A DNA stretch of 64,000 bases, taken from Rhodanobacter sp. C05 (GTDB lineage Bacteria > Pseudomonadota > Gammaproteobacteria > Xanthomonadales > Rhodanobacteraceae). Position numbers and translations under genes: made by a program. The notes under the pieces are model-generated. The model made no database searches. It worked only from the letters and a program-made list of their open reading frames with translations, and was not told the origin of the DNA. Of this stretch, positions 102-45,414 are shown in pieces. The stretch covers positions 1 to 64,000 of the forward strand of contig NZ_MUNQ01000019.1 of NCBI RefSeq assembly GCF_002001165.1. Direction: 5' to 3'. Positions within the stretch are counted from its first letter, which is position 1. Each line of letters begins with the position of its first letter.

Positions 102-1313
102 TCAGAATCCGGCGGCATGCCCGGCGATGCGCCGCTTCAGCGGCGCAAGGTGATCGAGCAGGCGCACGCCGAGTCCGCGTGCGGCGACCAGCGCCGGCGA
201 TTGCCACGCATAGATACGTGCCAGCGCATCGAAGCCCAGTGCATCGAGCGTGTCGGCACTGCGCCGGCGACGTGCGTAACGGCGCAGTACATGCCTGGCG
301 CCGATGTCGCGGCCGGCGTTGCGTGCTGCGAGCAACGTATCACGCAACTCGGCCACGTCGCGCAACCCGAGATTGACACCCTGGCCGGCCAGCGGATGCA
401 CTGCATGCGCGGCATCGCCAAGCAACACGAAACGATCGGCCTGATAGCTTTCGGCAAGTTGCAGCTTCAGCGGAAACGCCGCACGCCTTGTCGCGGCAAG
501 GATCCGCCCCAGCCGGAAATCGCTGGCCAAGCCAAGTTCGTCCAGAAAAGCCTGCTCGTCCAGTGCCAGCACACGCTGTGCCTCAGCCTCAGGCAACGAC
601 CACACGATCGAGCTGCGACCATCCGCCAACGGCAGCAAGGCCAGCGGCCCGCTCGGCAGGAAGCGTTGCCACGCGGTGTTCTCGTGCGGCCGCTCCGTGC
701 GGACATGGGCCACCACCGCGCGCTGCGCATAGTCGCGACCACGCGTCCCGATGCCTGCCAGCTGACGCAGCGGCGAGGCGGCGCCGTCGGCGGCCACGAG
801 CAATCCCGCAGCCAGCGTTTCACCATCCGCAAGCTCCAGCTGGATGCGATCCTCGCGTGCCTCGAAACCCTTCACCTCGGCCGGGCACAGGCGACGCACG
901 CCGGCGGCTTCGAGTGCCTGCCACAGTGTCCACTGCACCAGACTATTTTCGACGATATAGCCGAGCAGGTCGTGCCCTTCGCTGGCTGCATCGAAGTCGA
1001 TCGCCGCACCGCTCTCGGCATCCCATACATGCATGTGTGCATACGGACCAACACGGGCATCACGAATGGACGTCCAGACGCCCAGATCCTTCAGTAGCGC
1101 CAGCGAGGATGGCGCCAGGCCAACCACGCGCAGGTCCACTTCGTCGTCCATGCTCCACGCTGTCGGTGCACGCGCCTCCAGCAGCGCAGTACTGAAGCCT
1201 GCACGTGCCAACGCCAGCGCAGCGGCGGCACCAACCATGCCGCCGCCGACGACGGCGACATCCAGTGCCGGTGCACGGCGGCGCATCGAAACCTCCTGCA
1301 GTGGCGTATTCAT
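102..1313 (-). CDS. UbiH/UbiF/VisC family FAD-dependent hydroxylase (UbiI-like)
   Basis: A 403-residue flavin monooxygenase of the ubiquinone-biosynthesis hydroxylase family, which adds hydroxyls to the ring of the polyprenyl quinone precursor using FAD, NAD(P)H and O2. The N-terminal Rossmann motif GGGMVGAAAALALARAG is at residues 23-39, a mid-protein ADGAAS motif matches the DG signature, and GDAAHAVHPLAGQGVNLGLR is the C-terminal FAD-binding GD signature in the form usual for VisC/UbiI/UbiF. The start ATG overlaps the stop of the upstream ubiH (ATGA), so the two are translationally coupled. Which ring position it hydroxylates cannot be told from sequence; UbiI (C5) or UbiF (C6) are the candidates. 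Confidence 0.9.
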   Translation of the reverse strand: MNTPLQEVSMRRRAPALDVAVVGGGMVGAAAALALARAGFSTALLEARAPTAWSMDDEVDLRVVGLAPSSLALLKDLGVWTSIRDARVGPYAHMHVWDAESGAAIDFDAASEGHDLLGYIVENSLVQWTLWQALEAAGVRRLCPAEVKGFEAREDRIQLELADGETLAAGLLVAADGAASPLRQLAGIGTRGRDYAQRAVVAHVRTERPHENTAWQRFLPSGPLALLPLADGRSSIVWSLPEAEAQRVLALDEQAFLDELGLASDFRLGRILAATRRAAFPLKLQLAESYQADRFVLLGDAAHAVHPLAGQGVNLGLRDVAELRDTLLAARNAGRDIGARHVLRRYARRRRSADTLDALGFDALARIYAWQSPALVAARGLGVRLLDHLAPLKRRIAGHAAGF

Positions 1314-2539
1314 GAAAGCCGCTCCAGTACTGCCAGCGGCGATTCACCCCTGAACCCCATGCCACGCCGTGCCAATGCGCGTTGCAGCGGTGGCACACGG
1401 TCGCAGGCCAACAAGGCCAGCGAGCGTAGCGGCGCCAGCATGGGTTGTGGCAGGCAGGCCAGCCGCACCAGGCCGTGACTCATCGCCATGGTGCCGCCGC
1501 GATCCGGTGCACGGCGTGCGGCATAGCGCTCCAGCAGATCGACAGCACCCGGATCCGGTGCTGCCGCCACCAGCTCGGCCAGCGTCAGCGCGTCACGCAG
1601 ACCCAGATTGAAACCCTGCGCACCGATCGGATGCACGGTCTGTGCGGCATTCCCGACCAGTACCGCACGCGGCCCGGTCAACTGCGCCGCGGCGACGCGA
1701 TGGATCGGATACGGATGACGCCGGCCGGGCCGCGTCAGGCGACCGAGACGCCAGCCGAATCGACGCTGCGCCAGTTCGATGAAGCCTGCATCATCGAGTG
1801 CGGCGACCGCATCCGTCTCGTCGGCAGCGACGGTCAGCACCAACCCGCAGCGACGCTCGGCCAGCGGCAGCAGCGCGATCGGGCCATCATCGGCGAAACG
1901 CTCGTAGGCACGATTGGCATGCTCGCGCTCTGGCGTGACCGTGCAGACGAACAGCGTTTGCCGATAATCATGCCGCTCGGCATCGATGCCGAGCTGTGCG
2001 CGCACGAACGAGTTGGTACCGTCAGCACCGACCAGCAGCCGCGTGTCGATGCTGCGCACGCCATCGGCGGTACTGATCTGCGCACGCCAGCCATCAGCCA
2101 GCGGCTGCAGCGCGGACAAGGTCGCAGGTGCGAGCCGGGTCAGCCGGGTGCATTCGTCCAGCCGCTGCAGCAGGGCCGCGCCGAGTTCGCGCGCTGGCAG
2201 CGTCCAGCCCAGCGCATCGACACCGTGCCGATCCGCATCGATGCGTGCACTGCCGAATTCACCGGCACGGCTTACATGGATATGCCTGATCGGTGTGGCA
2301 CGCGCCGCGGCATGCCGCCATACACCGATCGCATCGAGCCCGTTGACGGTGGCCCGTGCCAGTGCCAGGTTGCGTTCGTCGTAGCTGGGCTGGGCATCGG
2401 CGCGCGGCGCGGCGGTTTCGACCAGGGTGGTGGCGACACCTGCGGCATCCAGCGCGATCGCCAGGCTGGCGCCCACCAGGCCACCACCGATGATCAGGAC
2501 GCCAGGCTCGTTCATGGCGGAAGAAGCGAGGTCATTCAT
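1310..2539 (-). CDS. ubiH: 2-octaprenyl-6-methoxyphenol hydroxylase UbiH
   Basis: A 409-residue FAD-dependent hydroxylase of ubiquinone synthesis. The Rossmann motif GGGLVGASLAIALDAAGV is near the N-terminus. The C-terminal signature GNAAQTVHPIGAQGFNLGLR, with NAAQ rather than DAAH, is typical of UbiH and separates it from its VisC-like neighbour. Start choice is uncertain: ATGs at 2581, 2539 and 2515 are all in frame and none has a strong ribosome-binding site; 2539 or 2515 keeps the usual short lead before the FAD motif. The gene is divergent from the BtuM-type gene, so promoters for both must lie in about 90 bp. Confidence 0.88.
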   Translation of the reverse strand: MNDLASSAMNEPGVLIIGGGLVGASLAIALDAAGVATTLVETAAPRADAQPSYDERNLALARATVNGLDAIGVWRHAAARATPIRHIHVSRAGEFGSARIDADRHGVDALGWTLPARELGAALLQRLDECTRLTRLAPATLSALQPLADGWRAQISTADGVRSIDTRLLVGADGTNSFVRAQLGIDAERHDYRQTLFVCTVTPEREHANRAYERFADDGPIALLPLAERRCGLVLTVAADETDAVAALDDAGFIELAQRRFGWRLGRLTRPGRRHPYPIHRVAAAQLTGPRAVLVGNAAQTVHPIGAQGFNLGLRDALTLAELVAAAPDPGAVDLLERYAARRAPDRGGTMAMSHGLVRLACLPQPMLAPLRSLALLACDRVPPLQRALARRGMGFRGESPLAVLERLS

Positions 2540-2627
2540 GGGCCGATGATACGCGGTGAGGCTGCCTGCGTCCTCGTGCATTGGGCTAGACTAGCGGTTT
2601 ATACAGACGCCTATACGGAGCACCTCC

Positions 2628-3254
2628 ATGGTCAAGACACTGACCCAACGCCTCGGCATCTTGCTGGTACTCGCCCTGGTGATGGCGGCCACCCGCGTGC
2701 ACCACTCCTTCCTGCATCACTTCGATGCGCTGCCGGACGCCTCGTGGGGCATTTTCTTCCTTGCCGGCTTCTGGCTGCGCGGCACCGGTCGCTGGGCCGG
2801 CTTTCGTTGGGCATTTCCGCTGCTGATGGCCGAAGCAGTGCTGATCGACTATCTGGTCATCACCAACCAGGGCATCGATTTCTGGAGCCACTACTGCGTA
2901 TCGGCAGCCTACTGGTTCCTGATTCCGTCGTATTTCAGCCTGTGGCTGGGTGGCAGCTGGTTGGCACGTCACCAGATCGGCTTGCGTTTGCAGACTCTGG
3001 GCATGGCCGTCGTGGCCCTGCTGGTCAGCTGGGCGGTGTGTTATCTGCTGTCCAATGGCAGCTTCTACTGGCTCAGCAGCAGCGTGCCGCTGCCGCGCAG
3101 CTTTGCGGCATGGTTCGCCAATCTGGGCGACTGGTATCTGCCGTTCCTGCAGACCACGGCGCTGTATGTCGGCGTAGGTGCTTTCTTGCACGTCCTGGCG
3201 ATCCAGCTGACGCGTGCACTGAAGCAGGCTGACCAGCCGAATCTGCCGCGCTGA
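2628..3254 (+). CDS. btuM: BtuM-type cobalamin transporter (solitary ECF S-component-like membrane protein)
   Basis: A 208-residue protein with about six membrane segments. It resembles the BtuM family, lone S-component-like proteins that bring cobalamin across the inner membrane in Gram-negatives and are often encoded beside a cobalamin adenosyltransferase, as here (19 bp to the next gene). Residues reported to matter in the Thiobacillus denitrificans protein have counterparts with similar spacing: His31 (HHFDALPDAS), Asp74 (LIDYL), Cys90 and Tyr95 (HYCVSAAYWF) and Arg157 (LPRSF). The Cys is the proposed axial ligand of the cobalt. A ribosome site GGAG lies 7 nt before ATG. No riboswitch fits in the short upstream gap. 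The call rests on recalled family features and neighbourhood, not an alignment. Confidence 0.72.
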   Translation: MVKTLTQRLGILLVLALVMAATRVHHSFLHHFDALPDASWGIFFLAGFWLRGTGRWAGFRWAFPLLMAEAVLIDYLVITNQGIDFWSHYCVSAAYWFLIPSYFSLWLGGSWLARHQIGLRLQTLGMAVVALLVSWAVCYLLSNGSFYWLSSSVPLPRSFAAWFANLGDWYLPFLQTTALYVGVGAFLHVLAIQLTRALKQADQPNLPR

Positions 3255-3273
3255 GTCAGCGCAGCAAATCGCC

Positions 3274-3846
3274 ATGGGCAACCGCCTTTCGAAGATCTAT
3301 ACGCGTACCGGCGACGACGGCAGTACCGGCCTCGGCGACGGCTCGCGCGTGGGCAAGGATTCGCTGCGGGTCAATGCCTACGGCACGGTGGACGAGCTCA
3401 ACAGCACGATCGGCATGGTGCTGGCTGCCGACGGTGTCGATGCCACGATAAGCGACGTGCTCGGCCAGGTGCAGCACGCCCTGTTCGACCTCGGCGGCGA
3501 GCTGTGCATCCCGGGCATGGCGCTGATCGAGGATGCCGACATCGAACGGCTGGAGCAGGTGCTCGATGGCTTCAACGATCCACTGCCGCCGCTGAAGGAT
3601 TTCATCCTGCCCGGTGGCGGCATGGCAGCGGCCTGCTGCCACCTGGCACGTACCGTGTGCCGCCGCGCCGAGCGCGAGGTGATCACCCTGGCGCGGGTCG
3701 AGACCGTGCGTCCGCAGGTACAGCGTTACCTCAACCGATTGTCCGACCTGCTATTCGTGATTTCGCGTGTTCTGGCGCGTACCAGCGGCCATGGCGAGGT
3801 GCTGTGGCAGCACGAGCGGCGTCGCAAGCCCCAGTCTGCCGGATAA
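3274..3846 (+). CDS. PduO-type cob(I)alamin adenosyltransferase
   Basis: A 190-residue ATP:cob(I)alamin adenosyltransferase of the PduO/MMAB family, which transfers the adenosyl group of ATP to cob(I)alamin to make coenzyme B12. The N-terminal ATP-binding motif TRTGDDGSTGLGDGSRV is at residues 10-26, followed by RVNAYGTVDELNS at 32-44 and the conserved C-terminal YLNRLSDLLFVISR helix. Length is normal for the family. It sits 19 bp after the BtuM-type transporter and 8 bp before the amidohydrolase gene, suggesting one operon in which imported B12 is adenosylated at once. Confidence 0.93.
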   Translation: MGNRLSKIYTRTGDDGSTGLGDGSRVGKDSLRVNAYGTVDELNSTIGMVLAADGVDATISDVLGQVQHALFDLGGELCIPGMALIEDADIERLEQVLDGFNDPLPPLKDFILPGGGMAAACCHLARTVCRRAEREVITLARVETVRPQVQRYLNRLSDLLFVISRVLARTSGHGEVLWQHERRRKPQSAG

Positions 3847-3854
3847 GCCACCGC

Positions 3855-4775
3855 ATGCAGCGGCTGTACACCCATCCCGCCTGTCTGCTGCATGATCCCG
3901 GCCCGGGACATGCCGAACAGCCGGCGCGACTGCGTGCCGTGTTGCAGGCACTGGATCACGATCGCTACGCCGCGCTCGACCGCGTCGAGGCGCCTCAAGC
4001 CACCCGTGAGCAGCTGTTGCGGGTGCATGGCGCCGCCCATGTCGACCGGATCCTGGCCTGTACTGCGCACGAAGGCAGGCAATGGCTGGATGCGGACACG
4101 GCGATGTCGCCGGGATCGATCGAGGCGGCCCTGCGCGCCGCCGGCGCCGCCGTGGCGGCGGTCGACGCCGTCATGACCAGCGCGACCACGCACGCGTTCT
4201 GCGCTGTGCGTCCGCCTGGCCACCATGCCACGCGCGACCAGGCGATGGGCTTCTGCCTGTTCAACAACATCGCCGTGGCCGCGGCGCATGCGCTGGATGC
4301 GCATGGCCTGAAGCGCATCGCCATCGCCGACTTCGACGTGCACCACGGCAACGGCACGCAGGCCATCTTCGAGCGCGAACCGCGCGTGCTGTTCGCATCC
4401 AGTCACCAGTCGCCGCTGTACCCGGACAGCGGGCGCGAAGACGAACGCGGTGTCGGCAACATCGTCAACGGCATCCTGTCGCCCGGTGCCGGCTCGCATG
4501 AGTTCCGCGAGTTGTGGGACAGCGTGCTGCTGCCACGGTTGCAGGCCTTCAAGCCACAATTGGTACTGGTCTCGGCCGGCTTCGACGCGCATCGCAACGA
4601 CCCGCTGGCGGACATCAGGCTGGGCCAGGAAGACTACGTCTGGATCACCGAGCGCCTGGCGACACTGGCCCGAACATATGCCGGTGGCCGGCTGGTCTCC
4701 ACGCTGGAAGGCGGCTACGACCTCGCTGCACTGGCCGCCTGCGCAAGCGCGCATGCGGGCACGCTTGCCGACTAG
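3855..4775 (+). CDS. histone deacetylase-family amidohydrolase (class II-like)
   Basis: A 306-residue zinc amidohydrolase of the arginase/histone-deacetylase fold. Bacterial members remove acetyl groups from proteins, polyamines or other small amides; the substrate here is unknown. Catalytic features are intact: the His pair in RPPGHHA (119-125), zinc ligands Asp161 and His163 in DFDVHHGNGTQ, Asp244 in AGFDAHRNDPL, and catalytic Tyr288 in LEGGYDL. The ATG at 3855 is chosen because homology begins there (YTHPACLLHDPGPGHAE); the reading frame stays open far upstream but only as a shadow of the adenosyltransferase gene. Probably co-transcribed with the two cobalamin genes, without an obvious functional link. 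Confidence 0.88.
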   Translation: MQRLYTHPACLLHDPGPGHAEQPARLRAVLQALDHDRYAALDRVEAPQATREQLLRVHGAAHVDRILACTAHEGRQWLDADTAMSPGSIEAALRAAGAAVAAVDAVMTSATTHAFCAVRPPGHHATRDQAMGFCLFNNIAVAAAHALDAHGLKRIAIADFDVHHGNGTQAIFEREPRVLFASSHQSPLYPDSGREDERGVGNIVNGILSPGAGSHEFRELWDSVLLPRLQAFKPQLVLVSAGFDAHRNDPLADIRLGQEDYVWITERLATLARTYAGGRLVSTLEGGYDLAALAACASAHAGTLAD

Positions 4776-5078
4776 CCCTCCTTAACCTGGCGGTTTGGGT
4801 ACCCACGTCGTACTTGCTTCGCGCCACGGGCGCACAGGTATAGGCACCCGCCTCATGATGATGGTGTCACTGTCCGCTGAAAGGTGGTTCGATGGCCAAA
4901 CAGCGGCGGATCGCATGTTGCTTCTGAGCCAGCCCGACGTGCCATCAGGCATCGGTCCTGCTCGATTTGTGCCCACTCATGCTGAATCTTCGCACTGCCC
5001 CGATAAAGGTTTGCCTGCCGCCAGATGGGGCTTTCTGCTAGCTTAACCAGCCTTCAACGTCGGCAGACTTCCACTGTG
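4776..5078. other. intergenic region upstream of lptD
   Basis: About 300 bp with no supported gene; short open frames here lack a ribosome site and coding character. It should hold the promoter of the lptD-apaH operon, with TTGCCT upstream of GCTAGCTTAA near 5010-5045 as a weak candidate. I see no convincing envelope-stress (sigma-E, GAACTT) element. Confidence 0.4.
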
Positions 5079-33847: not shown

Positions 33848-33858
33848 ATTCGGGAAGA

Positions 33859-34227
<369 letters not shown>

Positions 34228-42686: not shown

Positions 42687-42715
42687 TTGACTTCGGACGT
42701 CCATACGGCTAATTT
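42687..42715 (+). promoter_or_regulatory. promoter of the riboswitch-metE transcript
   Basis: TTGACT (42687-42692, 5/6 to -35), 17-bp spacer, TAATTT (42710-42715, 3/6 to -10). The predicted start near 42722 falls at the 5' edge of the cobalamin riboswitch, which supports the weak -10. Confidence 0.5.
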
Positions 42716-42723
42716 TTGCGACG

Positions 42724-42912
42724 CTGATGGTAACTATCTCTTCATGCGAATAAAGAGATAACTCAAGGGAAGCCGGTGTGAATCCGGCGCTGCCCCGCAG
42801 CGGTATGTGGAAACGACCTCCGTTACATGCACTGGACGCGATGCGTCCGGGAAGCGACGGACAGTAGGTTGAGCCGTACGTCCACGAGCCCGAATACCTG
42901 CCTCAGCCGGAA
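42724..42912 (+). promoter_or_regulatory. cobalamin (B12) riboswitch controlling metE
   Basis: The conserved core is clear: AAAGAGATAACTCAAGGGAA, then GCCGGTGTGAATCCGGCGCT, GCCCCGCAGCGGTATG, and the B12 box GAGCCCGAATACCTGCC. Adenosyl- or methylcobalamin binding represses the downstream gene. About 200 nt separate the aptamer from the metE start. This explains how the cell switches off the B12-independent methionine synthase when cobalamin is available. Confidence 0.93.
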
Positions 42913-43082
42913 GCGTGCATGCGCGCTTCTGTCCGACCTGGCGTTTCCGCGGGGGAACACCGGAGCCCGTGCGCCCTCCGTCATATGCGGATGATGCGCT
43001 GGCTTCTCTCATCCCGCGGCAGTGCCGGCTCGCCCGCGGGGGCGAAGGTCAAAGGCACAGCGATCATGCTGGTCATCCTTCG

Positions 43083-43108
43083 TTCCTCTTTGCCCATTGC
43101 AAGAGGAA
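43083..43108 (+). promoter_or_regulatory. hairpin sequestering the metE ribosome-binding site
   Basis: TTCCTCTT (43083-43090) is perfectly complementary to AAGAGGAA (43101-43108), which contains the metE Shine-Dalgarno; an alternative register extends the stem by TGC/GCA with one bulge. This stem-loop just before the ATG is a good candidate expression platform for the upstream riboswitch, acting on translation. Confidence 0.6.
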
Positions 43109-43113
43109 ATCCA

Positions 43114-45414
43114 ATGTCACTCGTTACCTATTCAGGCTTTCCGCGCATCGGCCTCAAGCGTGAACTCAAGCGCTCGCTTGAATCACACTGGCGCGGTGAA
43201 ATCAGTGCAGAGGCGCTGTCCGACACCGCCAGCATGTTGCGTCATCGGCATTGGCAGCTGGCCGCGGACGCCGGTGCCGATGTCGTGCCGTGCAACGACT
43301 TCAGCCTGTATGACCATGTACTCGACACAGCCGTGCTGTTTGACGCCATTCCCTCGCGCTATCGGCCGGTGTTCGCCGAAACCCCCCTGGACGGCTATTT
43401 CGCGATGGCCCGCGGCCACAAGCGCGACGGCCATGACCTGCATGCGCTGGAAATGACCAAGTGGTTCGACACCAACTACCACTACCTGGTGCCCGAACTG
43501 GAGGCTGGTCAACGTTTTGCGCTCAGCGGCGACAAGCCACTCGCTGAATTCCGCGAAGCGCAGGCACAAGGTCATCGGGCACGCCCCATACTGCTCGGCC
43601 CGGTTTCGTTCCTGCTGCTCTCCAAGGCTGTCGACGGCAGCGACCGCCTGGCGTTGCTGGACAATCTGCTGCCCGTCTACGTCGAGCTGCTCGAACAACT
43701 GGCGGACGCCGGTGCCGACTGGGTGCAACTTGACGAGCCCTGTCTTGCGCTCGATCAGGATGACGATGACCACGCCGCTTATCGGCGTGCCTACGCTGCA
43801 CTGGCCAGGGCGCGCACACCACGACTGCTGCTGGCGAGTTACTTCGGCGCCTTGGGCGACAACCTGAAGCTGGCGACTGCGCTGCCGGTGGATGGGCTGC
43901 ACATCGATCTGGTGCGTGCGCCGGAACAGCTCGACAGTGTGCTGGACGCGCTGCCGCCCAGCCATATCCTCAGTGTCGGCGTGGTCGATGGGCGCAACAT
44001 CTGGCGCAGCCAGCCCGAGCGCGTGCTGCCGCTGTTGCACAAGGCTCGGGCGCGCATCGGCAGTGAACGCCTGTGGCTCGCACCATCCTGCTCGTTGCTG
44101 CACGTGCCGATCGATCTCGCGGCGGAAACCACACTCGATCCAGCGCGCCTTGCCCCCATGGCCTTCGCCCGGCAGAAAATCGAGGAGCTGCGCGTGTATG
44201 CCGATGCGCTCGCCGGCCTGCCGGAAGCCGACGCCGCACTGGCGGCGCAGCAGGCCCTGTTGACCGCACAGGCGCATGCACCTGGCGTCATCGATACCGG
44301 GGTTCGCAGCCGCCTGCGCGCACTCAACCCGCAGGCGACCTTGCGTCGCTCCGGCTATCCCATACGCCAGCTGACACAGTCCGAGACCTTGGCATTGCCG
44401 CCGCTGCCGACCACCACGATCGGCTCCTTCCCGCAAACCGACGAGTTGCGCAAGGCGCGTGCCGCCCATCGTGCCGGCAGGCTGGACGATGCCGCCTACA
44501 ACGCCCTGCTGGAAGCCGAAGTCGAACGTGTAGTGCGTTTCCAGGAACACATCGGTCTGGACGTCCTGGTGCACGGCGAACCCGAACGCAACGACATGGT
44601 CGAATACTTCGGCGAACAACTGGATGGCTATCTGTTCACCAAGCTTGGTTGGGTGCAGAGCTACGGTTCGCGCTGCGTGAAGCCACCGGTGATCTATGGC
44701 GATATCGCCCGTCGCGCACCGATGACCGTGCATTGGTCGAGCTACGCGCAATCGCTGACCGAAAAGCCGATGAAGGGCATGCTGACCGGCCCGGTGACGA
44801 TGTTGCAATGGTCGTTCGTGCGCGACGATCTGCCGCGCGAGACTGTCTGCCGGCAGATCGCGCTGGCCTTGCGCGACGAAGTGCATGACCTGGAAGCCGC
44901 CGGTATCCATGTGATCCAGATCGACGAGCCGGCGCTGCGCGAAGGCCTGCCACTGCGCCGCAGCGAGTGGCCTGCGTATCTGGCATGGGCCGTGGAATGC
45001 TTCCGCATCACCGCCGGCGGCGTGCGCGACGCGACGCAGATCCACACGCATATGTGCTACTCGGAGTTCAACGACATCATCGATGCGGTGGCCGCGATGG
45101 ATGCCGATGTGATCTCGATCGAGACCAGCCGCTCGCGGATGGAACTGCTCGACGCGTTCGTGCGCTTTCGCTACCCCAACGGCATCGGCCCGGGCGTGTA
45201 CGACATCCACTCACCGCGCGTGCCCGAACCGGCGGAAATGCTCGACCTGCTGCACAAGGCGCTCGACGTGCTGCAACCGGACCAGCTCTGGATCAATCCC
45301 GATTGCGGGCTGAAGACCCGAGGCTGGCCCGAGGTGGAGCTGGCACTGCGCCACATGGTTGGTACCGCGCAGCAGTTGCGAAGCGAACTCAAACTGCTGG
45401 TATGCGACTTTTAA
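43114..45414 (+). CDS. metE: 5-methyltetrahydropteroyltriglutamate--homocysteine methyltransferase MetE
   Basis: A 766-residue cobalamin-independent methionine synthase with two homologous (beta/alpha)8 barrels. The N-terminal barrel starts [20 protein letters not shown]; the catalytic barrel starts [16 protein letters not shown]. Zinc ligands are visible in HTHMCYSEF (His, Cys), SIETSRS (Glu) and [11 protein letters not shown] (Cys). The ATG at 43114 has AGAGGA 7 nt upstream; the frame is open further upstream only through the leader. Controlled by the B12 riboswitch. Confidence 0.97.

Follow-up and report, generated by a model that had tools for sequence, protein, structure and literature searches.

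A BtuM-family membrane protein paired with a PduO-type adenosyltransferase: a candidate minimal module for cobalamin uptake in Rhodanobacter sp. C05

In the genome of Rhodanobacter sp. C05 a gene for a 208-residue membrane protein is followed on the same strand by an adenosyltransferase gene, which raises the question of whether the membrane protein is a cobalamin importer of the BtuM type and whether the two products act together in B12 uptake. The features of the locus in the window (the whole 64,000-nt stretch of DNA analyzed, from contig NZ_MUNQ01000019.1) are collected in Table 1. With high confidence, the btuM-pduO pair was read as a minimal inner-membrane B12 uptake module. The btuM stop and the adenosyltransferase ORF are separated by 19 nt. 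The monooxygenase, which we take to be UbiH-like, probably has its true start inside the listed ORF. Elsewhere in the window, a bacterial RNase P RNA of class A was found on the minus strand (33858-34224, Rfam 316 bits).

Table 1. Positions in the window of the genes, codons and elements discussed in the text.
Feature	Position	Strand	Basis
btuM, class-1 (Lysobacterales) branch, 208-aa membrane protein with S-component-like fold	2628..3254	+	PDB match, profile, predicted fold
PduO-type ATP:cob(I)alamin adenosyltransferase, 190 aa	3274..3846	+	PF01923, TIGR00636, PDB 2zhy
FAD-dependent monooxygenase, divergent neighbor outside the B12 pathway	1310..2581	-	PF01494 5.3e-34
Histone-deacetylase-family gene, 3' of the adenosyltransferase	3855..4775	+	PF00850 2.7e-90
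Cys90 codon, predicted alpha-axial cobalt ligand (Td Cys80)	2895..2897	+	Alignments
Phe85-Trp86 insertion directly before the Cys loop, class-1 signature	2880..2885	+	Alignment of relatives
Asn165 codon, at the position of Td BtuM pocket Arg153	3120..3122	+	Alignment of relatives
TAGACT, putative -10 element of btuM	2587..2592	+	Block conserved upstream of related btuM genes
Cobalamin riboswitch before metE (ORF listed 42919-45411)	42710..42919	+	RF00174 87.7 bits; metE by PF01717/PF08267

The first-pass annotation had called the 208-aa protein a BtuM-type importer, and PDB sequence match, profile and predicted fold all pointed to the same solved BtuM chain (8c7p/8ovv). The chain was matched by phmmer at E = 9.2e-28 among 177,635 PDB sequences, which is far beyond chance, and a 37-sequence profile of the protein matched it at 3e-39. 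The two entries, titled 'Tagless BtuM in complex with' hydroxycobalamin (8ovv) or cyanocobalamin (8c7p), leave the organism unnamed; the numbering of the chain fits all five residues reported for the BtuM of Thiobacillus denitrificans (Td BtuM; PMC6072759, cited, like the other papers below, for the sections available). Td BtuM was also matched at 6.2e-36 by a profile of the class-1 branch described below (hhalign). The AlphaFold2 model of the protein, built with 53 sequences, had six helices and a mean pLDDT of 91.1. Foldseek searches with this model returned 8ovv (E = 3.2e-9) and 8c7p (E = 5.6e-9) as the sole matches at E ≤ 0.001; all others had E > 0.9 and were left unused. Superposition of the model on 8c7p with VIA-align gave Z = 20.6 over 176 residues, followed by ECF S-components and related chains (Z 7.5-10.8). 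By these sequence and model comparisons, the 208-aa protein belongs to the BtuM family. The PDB sequence, profile and fold searches brought up no separate entry for the crystal structure that PMC6072759 reports in the sections available.

Placement in another family had been named beforehand as the outcome that would speak against BtuM, and the profile search brought no other family above cut-off in Pfam or NCBIfam, the latter giving no match at all. A Pfam match to Herpes_UL73 (E = 0.27) was under the cut-off and disregarded, and a 693-residue collagen fusion in the PDB sequence search was taken as a chance match, as were two designed proteins that the class-2 profile brought up. As the solved BtuM chain and two class-2 proteins likewise had no Pfam or NCBIfam match at E ≤ 1, no BtuM model is apparent in these libraries, which fits the earlier remark that such proteins are usually left as 'hypothetical'; the family may be missed by profile-based annotation.

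The next gene had been described as adenosylating cobalamin, and its product is, on profile evidence, a PduO-type adenosyltransferase, with scores of 200.2 bits against a cut-off of 24 for PF01923 (Cob_adeno_trans, E = 3.4e-59) and 201.4 against 108.45 bits for TIGR00636 (PduO_Nterm, E = 8.3e-60). It matches PDB 2zhy, a PduO-type ATP:corrinoid adenosyltransferase, over nearly its full length (3e-63), as an ordinary member with no notable difference.

Related loci were collected from a scan at the level of the family Rhodanobacteraceae, in which 143 of 197 genomes had a BtuM match, so that B12 uptake in the group could be underestimated. Judged by best E-value, 120 of the 143 carried the class-1 type (3e-45 or better), and the other 23 had a distant type only (1e-26 or worse). 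The class-1 set comprised 81 loci (30 of them with only 1.5-kb flanks) with 67 distinct proteins, and the class-2 set comprised 20 distant-type loci with 21 proteins, drawn from a larger number of matches. PduO was present in all 81 class-1 loci, with no CobA or btuB in the stretch examined; at the 67 distinct loci, the PduO gene lay beside btuM, downstream and on the same strand, in every case. The median gap was 6 nt, and 61 of the 67 gaps fell between -20 and 100 nt; four others measured 138-705 nt and two -44 nt, at least one of the latter arising from a match that extends past the stop. PduO still followed btuM where BtuM identity was down to 46-53% (seven loci, in Luteimonas, Pseudoxanthomonas, Xanthomonas and another Lysobacteraceae).

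In the class-2 loci, a CobA-type adenosyltransferase adjoined btuM and a cobalamin riboswitch was present (both 20/20), and btuB was found in 18 of the 20, L088 and L093 showing only weak receptor pieces. At these two loci the riboswitch runs straight into btuM-cobA with no btuB, and the opposite strand upstream carries a different TonB-receptor-like frame; at L091, cobA is followed by genes typed as cbiB, cobD and cobQ. For 13 of the 20 class-2 loci, the genome of origin has a class-1 btuM as well. The BtuR, PduO and EutT types of adenosyltransferase are mutually non-homologous (PMC8123684), and in T. denitrificans, as in most other hosts, btuM co-localizes with btuR (PMC6072759). Across the wider class, 39 of 369 genomes had a BtuM match, and only four of them (E < 1e-70), belonging to the same order and the same two families in it, look class-1; of these, the three other than the window's own genome have PduO. 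At 25 other loci with flanks of about 1.5 kb, PduO was found in none, CobA in 15 and btuB in 18.

A tree of 77 rows, in which 30 of the 67 class-1 proteins were kept, placed class 1 on one branch (support 100/99). Class 2 required two changes, with 20 of its 21 rows on one branch (99/94) and the remaining one, a member of a tandem pair in L082, grouping with L132 from another gammaproteobacterial family (100/99); this grouping of the sequences suggests transfer behind that copy. The midpoint root was used for drawing only, and the tree therefore does not tell which arrangement is ancestral. Rows flagged for length (L147, L148, L150, L151) or odd composition (L128, L148) belong to neither class. 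The tandem genes of L082 (L082:5393-6580) are flanked by btuB and cobA/cobB, and their genome, of the same genus, has a class-1 btuM too; another same-genus genome, G018, had four BtuM matches.

The best surviving alternative is that btuM and pduO are neighbors by history only, the adenosyltransferase serving NrdJ and the mutase with no role in uptake. The flanking genes are conserved too, the monooxygenase in 78 of 81 class-1 loci (the exceptions, L068, L072 and L073, being cut near a contig end) and the histone-deacetylase-family gene in 81 of 81 (about 3 kb further on in L078), so the block may simply be inherited. This explanation is nevertheless considered unlikely, since PduO follows btuM even at the seven loci with 46-53% BtuM identity and class-2 BtuM is linked, at all 20 loci, to the non-homologous CobA. 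Two BtuM types, each strictly tied to its own adenosyltransferase, the two enzymes being unrelated, speak for metabolic trapping but do not prove it, as the reading of the pair as an uptake module would have it. A sister branch linked as strictly to a non-homologous enzyme offers independent genomic support for trapping and a natural second test system.

Five residues of the 208-aa protein, His31, Asp74, Cys90, Tyr95 and Arg157, are present as had been reported. Asp74 and Tyr95 fell on Td Asp67 and Tyr85 in every alignment made, and Cys90, whose alignment with the cobalamin-binding Cys had been set beforehand as a check, fell on Td Cys80; Arg157 falls in a class-1 insertion and was rejected as the equivalent of Arg153. 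The Cys90 column held C in 67/67 class-1, 21/21 class-2 and 25/25 other gammaproteobacterial proteins (113/113), Asp74 and Tyr95 were invariant in the same three sets, and Cys90 sits between predicted helices 62-80 and 93-114, at the position of loop L3. His31 is invariant in all 67 distinct class-1 proteins, falling on Td His28 in multiple alignments and on an invariant class-2 His in the profile-profile comparison; the pairwise alignments and that of the class-1 profile with Td BtuM put His26 on Td His28 and His31 on Td His33. The register is thus ambiguous, and His31 is favored over His26 as the conserved pocket His because it is the invariant one.

At the column of Td Arg153, a conserved pocket residue of BtuM (PMC6072759), all 67 class-1 proteins have Asn165, while Arg was found in 19/21 class-2 and 20/25 other proteins. 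The Arg was not taken as defining for BtuM, as the R153A variant of Td BtuM retained cobalamin binding and decyanation (PMC6072759) and five of the 25 other relatives also lack it. The insertion before the Cys loop (Phe85 in 67/67 and Trp86 in 66/67) corresponds to a gap in 46/46 other proteins, and Asn165, Asp168 (66/67) and Trp162 (also in 2/21 class-2 proteins) are further class-1 signatures. Given Asn165 in place of Arg153 and the insertion at the Cys loop, substrate or chemistry could differ.

The absence of a B12 riboswitch before btuM, unlike metE, had also been noted, and the scans agreed: one lies just before metE, and at the btuM locus none was detected by Rfam at gathering score or, over 1300-5000, with relaxed thresholds. 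The only relaxed match at the locus, mir-449, scored far under its cut-off and was set aside. None of the 28 class-1 loci scanned (28 among 51; Rfam gathering score) had a cobalamin riboswitch. In the window's own genome three were found (150 of 230 candidates scored), before btuB, the ribonucleotide reductase large subunit and metE. A B12 user that depends on uptake typically represses btuB and its B12-independent isozymes. The riboswitch at C11:243248-243462 precedes a large subunit with an ATP cone that is separate from the B12-dependent NrdJ on C6. Upstream of btuM, the TAGACT block was largely conserved across the upstream regions of 15 chosen relatives, three of which have variants of it, and is a putative -10 element; used as such, it would give a leader of about 25-35 nt, too short to hold a riboswitch aptamer of 190 nt. 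A consensus promoter scan of the locus called no promoter, and two terminator-like matches (1.0 expected) were both within genes and not retained.

The genome searched (30 contigs, 99.97% complete) encodes a single BtuM, for which the closest named relatives found were those of Rhodanobacter sp. B04 and C01 (both 94% identity). BtuB and NrdJ scored over their cut-offs, a methylmalonyl-CoA-mutase-family protein is present, and MetH appears as two adjacent frames (376 and 916 aa, C25:43623-47418), the C-terminal one over cut-off. By family search, the genome had no FecCD permease (13 of 14 control genomes positive) and therefore no BtuC, no CbiQ/EcfT protein (PF02361; 10/14), no SbmA/BacA protein (positive in only 2/14) and no CobS (10/14). 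The suggestion of a B12 route without BtuCD is supported by the lack of a FecCD permease, and BtuM is, by sequence search, the only inner-membrane B12 importer candidate among the kinds tested (FecCD, CbiQ/EcfT, SbmA/BacA). No importer is encoded by the genes scanned beside btuB, which specify RND efflux, a TonB-like protein, an amidohydrolase and G6PD; an antisense frame of 850 aa at btuB, which is on the minus strand there, had no Pfam match and was discarded. The NrdJ frame (1182 aa, C6:28224-31253) was matched as two pieces about 1.1 kb apart, and between them lay a LAGLIDADG_3 domain (6.6e-24) together with an intein-splicing match below threshold; from this, NrdJ probably carries an intein.

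These data also bear on a second alternative, that class-1 BtuM takes mainly another corrinoid (a cobamide with another lower base, or adenosylated forms) and cobalamin only secondarily. It has in its favor the class-specific Phe-Trp insertion beside the Cys, Asn in place of Arg153 and the two types being kept side by side in the genomes behind 13 of the 20 class-2 loci. Here, however, class 1 is the sole BtuM in a genome with BtuB and B12 enzymes and with no tested rival importer, and loss of the Arg in Td BtuM R153A leaves binding and decyanation (PMC6072759), so that this reading was judged distinctly improbable.

For the preferred reading, the btuM-pduO pair as an uptake module, computation showed that the protein falls in the BtuM family and has the conserved Cys and the predicted BtuM fold, that an adenosyltransferase is linked to it, that BtuB and B12 enzymes are encoded, and that the rival importers tested are absent. 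BtuB would carry cobalamin across the outer membrane, and BtuM, as a solitary S-component-like protein, would bind it base-off via Cys90 on the periplasmic side, might strip cyanide from it, and would let the corrinoid pass inward by facilitated diffusion, with no ATPase involved. The adjoining PduO-type enzyme, possibly co-transcribed with btuM, would convert the product to adenosylcobalamin, which would feed NrdJ and the acyl-CoA mutase, and adenosylation would trap the vitamin in the cell. We infer base-off binding, decyanation and transport by analogy with Td BtuM, which restores B12-dependent growth of E. coli without BtuC, BtuF and MetE, an effect abolished by C80S, and which supports growth on hydroxycobalamin as well (PMC6072759); facilitated diffusion with trapping by BtuR is the proposal of the same paper. 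A third alternative, in which the 208-aa protein processes (decyanates) or senses corrinoids at the membrane and transport falls to another protein, draws on the chemistry that Td BtuM performs on its substrate (PMC6072759) and on the S-component fold being common to receptors too (PMC11109136), but is very improbable given the hydroxycobalamin-supported growth and a genome with no FecCD, EcfT or SbmA/BacA protein.

A further-reaching and rather doubtful proposal, entertained only tentatively, is that the Lysobacterales btuM-pduO pair may be a second, independently assembled B12 capture-and-trap module with a remodelled cobalt loop, a non-homologous adenosyltransferase and freedom from riboswitch repression, in which base-off corrinoid may be handed directly to PduO. 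If true, the convergence of BtuM on adenosyltransferases of two unrelated kinds would make adenosylation the driver of net uptake through this ATPase-free importer. No description of a PduO-linked BtuM branch was found in the literature searched, in the sections available; the search did not reach the 2024 Structure or 2003 JBC papers.

Compared with known systems, the window's BtuM is closest to Td BtuM (PMC6072759; 8c7p, 8ovv), to which it is 38-45% identical across almost its full length, the figure varying with the alignment. The two have in common the fold, the Cys, the Asp, the Tyr and a His, an adjoining adenosyltransferase, and the lack of any ECF module found; the window's protein differs in Asn for Arg153, the Phe-Trp insertion by the Cys and a longer loop after the second helix, and its partner is PduO-type, whereas that of Td BtuM is btuR (PMC6072759). 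Class-2 BtuM of the same family is homologous to class 1 (profile match 1.2e-49), has the same Cys, Asp and Tyr and likewise stands beside an adenosyltransferase, but is only 34-40% identical to the window's BtuM, mostly has the Arg, and comes with riboswitch, CobA and usually btuB. A riboswitch, btuB, btuM arrangement like that of the class-2 loci is described in Azotobacter (PMC4465626). The ECF S-components for biotin, thiamin and riboflavin have a similar fold (VIA-align Z 9.3-10.8, where Z under about 13 in helical proteins may reflect only a common arrangement) at only 8-11% identity, and the same resemblance is reported for Td BtuM (PMC6072759); they work with an EcfT/ATPase module, whereas no such module was found in the window's genome. 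The movement of B12 by a solitary S-component-like protein without an ATPase is the question on which the class-1 branch bears. The BtuM importer family itself is already known, and by sequence the window's branch is set apart by a different enzyme partner, the lack of the usual riboswitch and a changed pocket.
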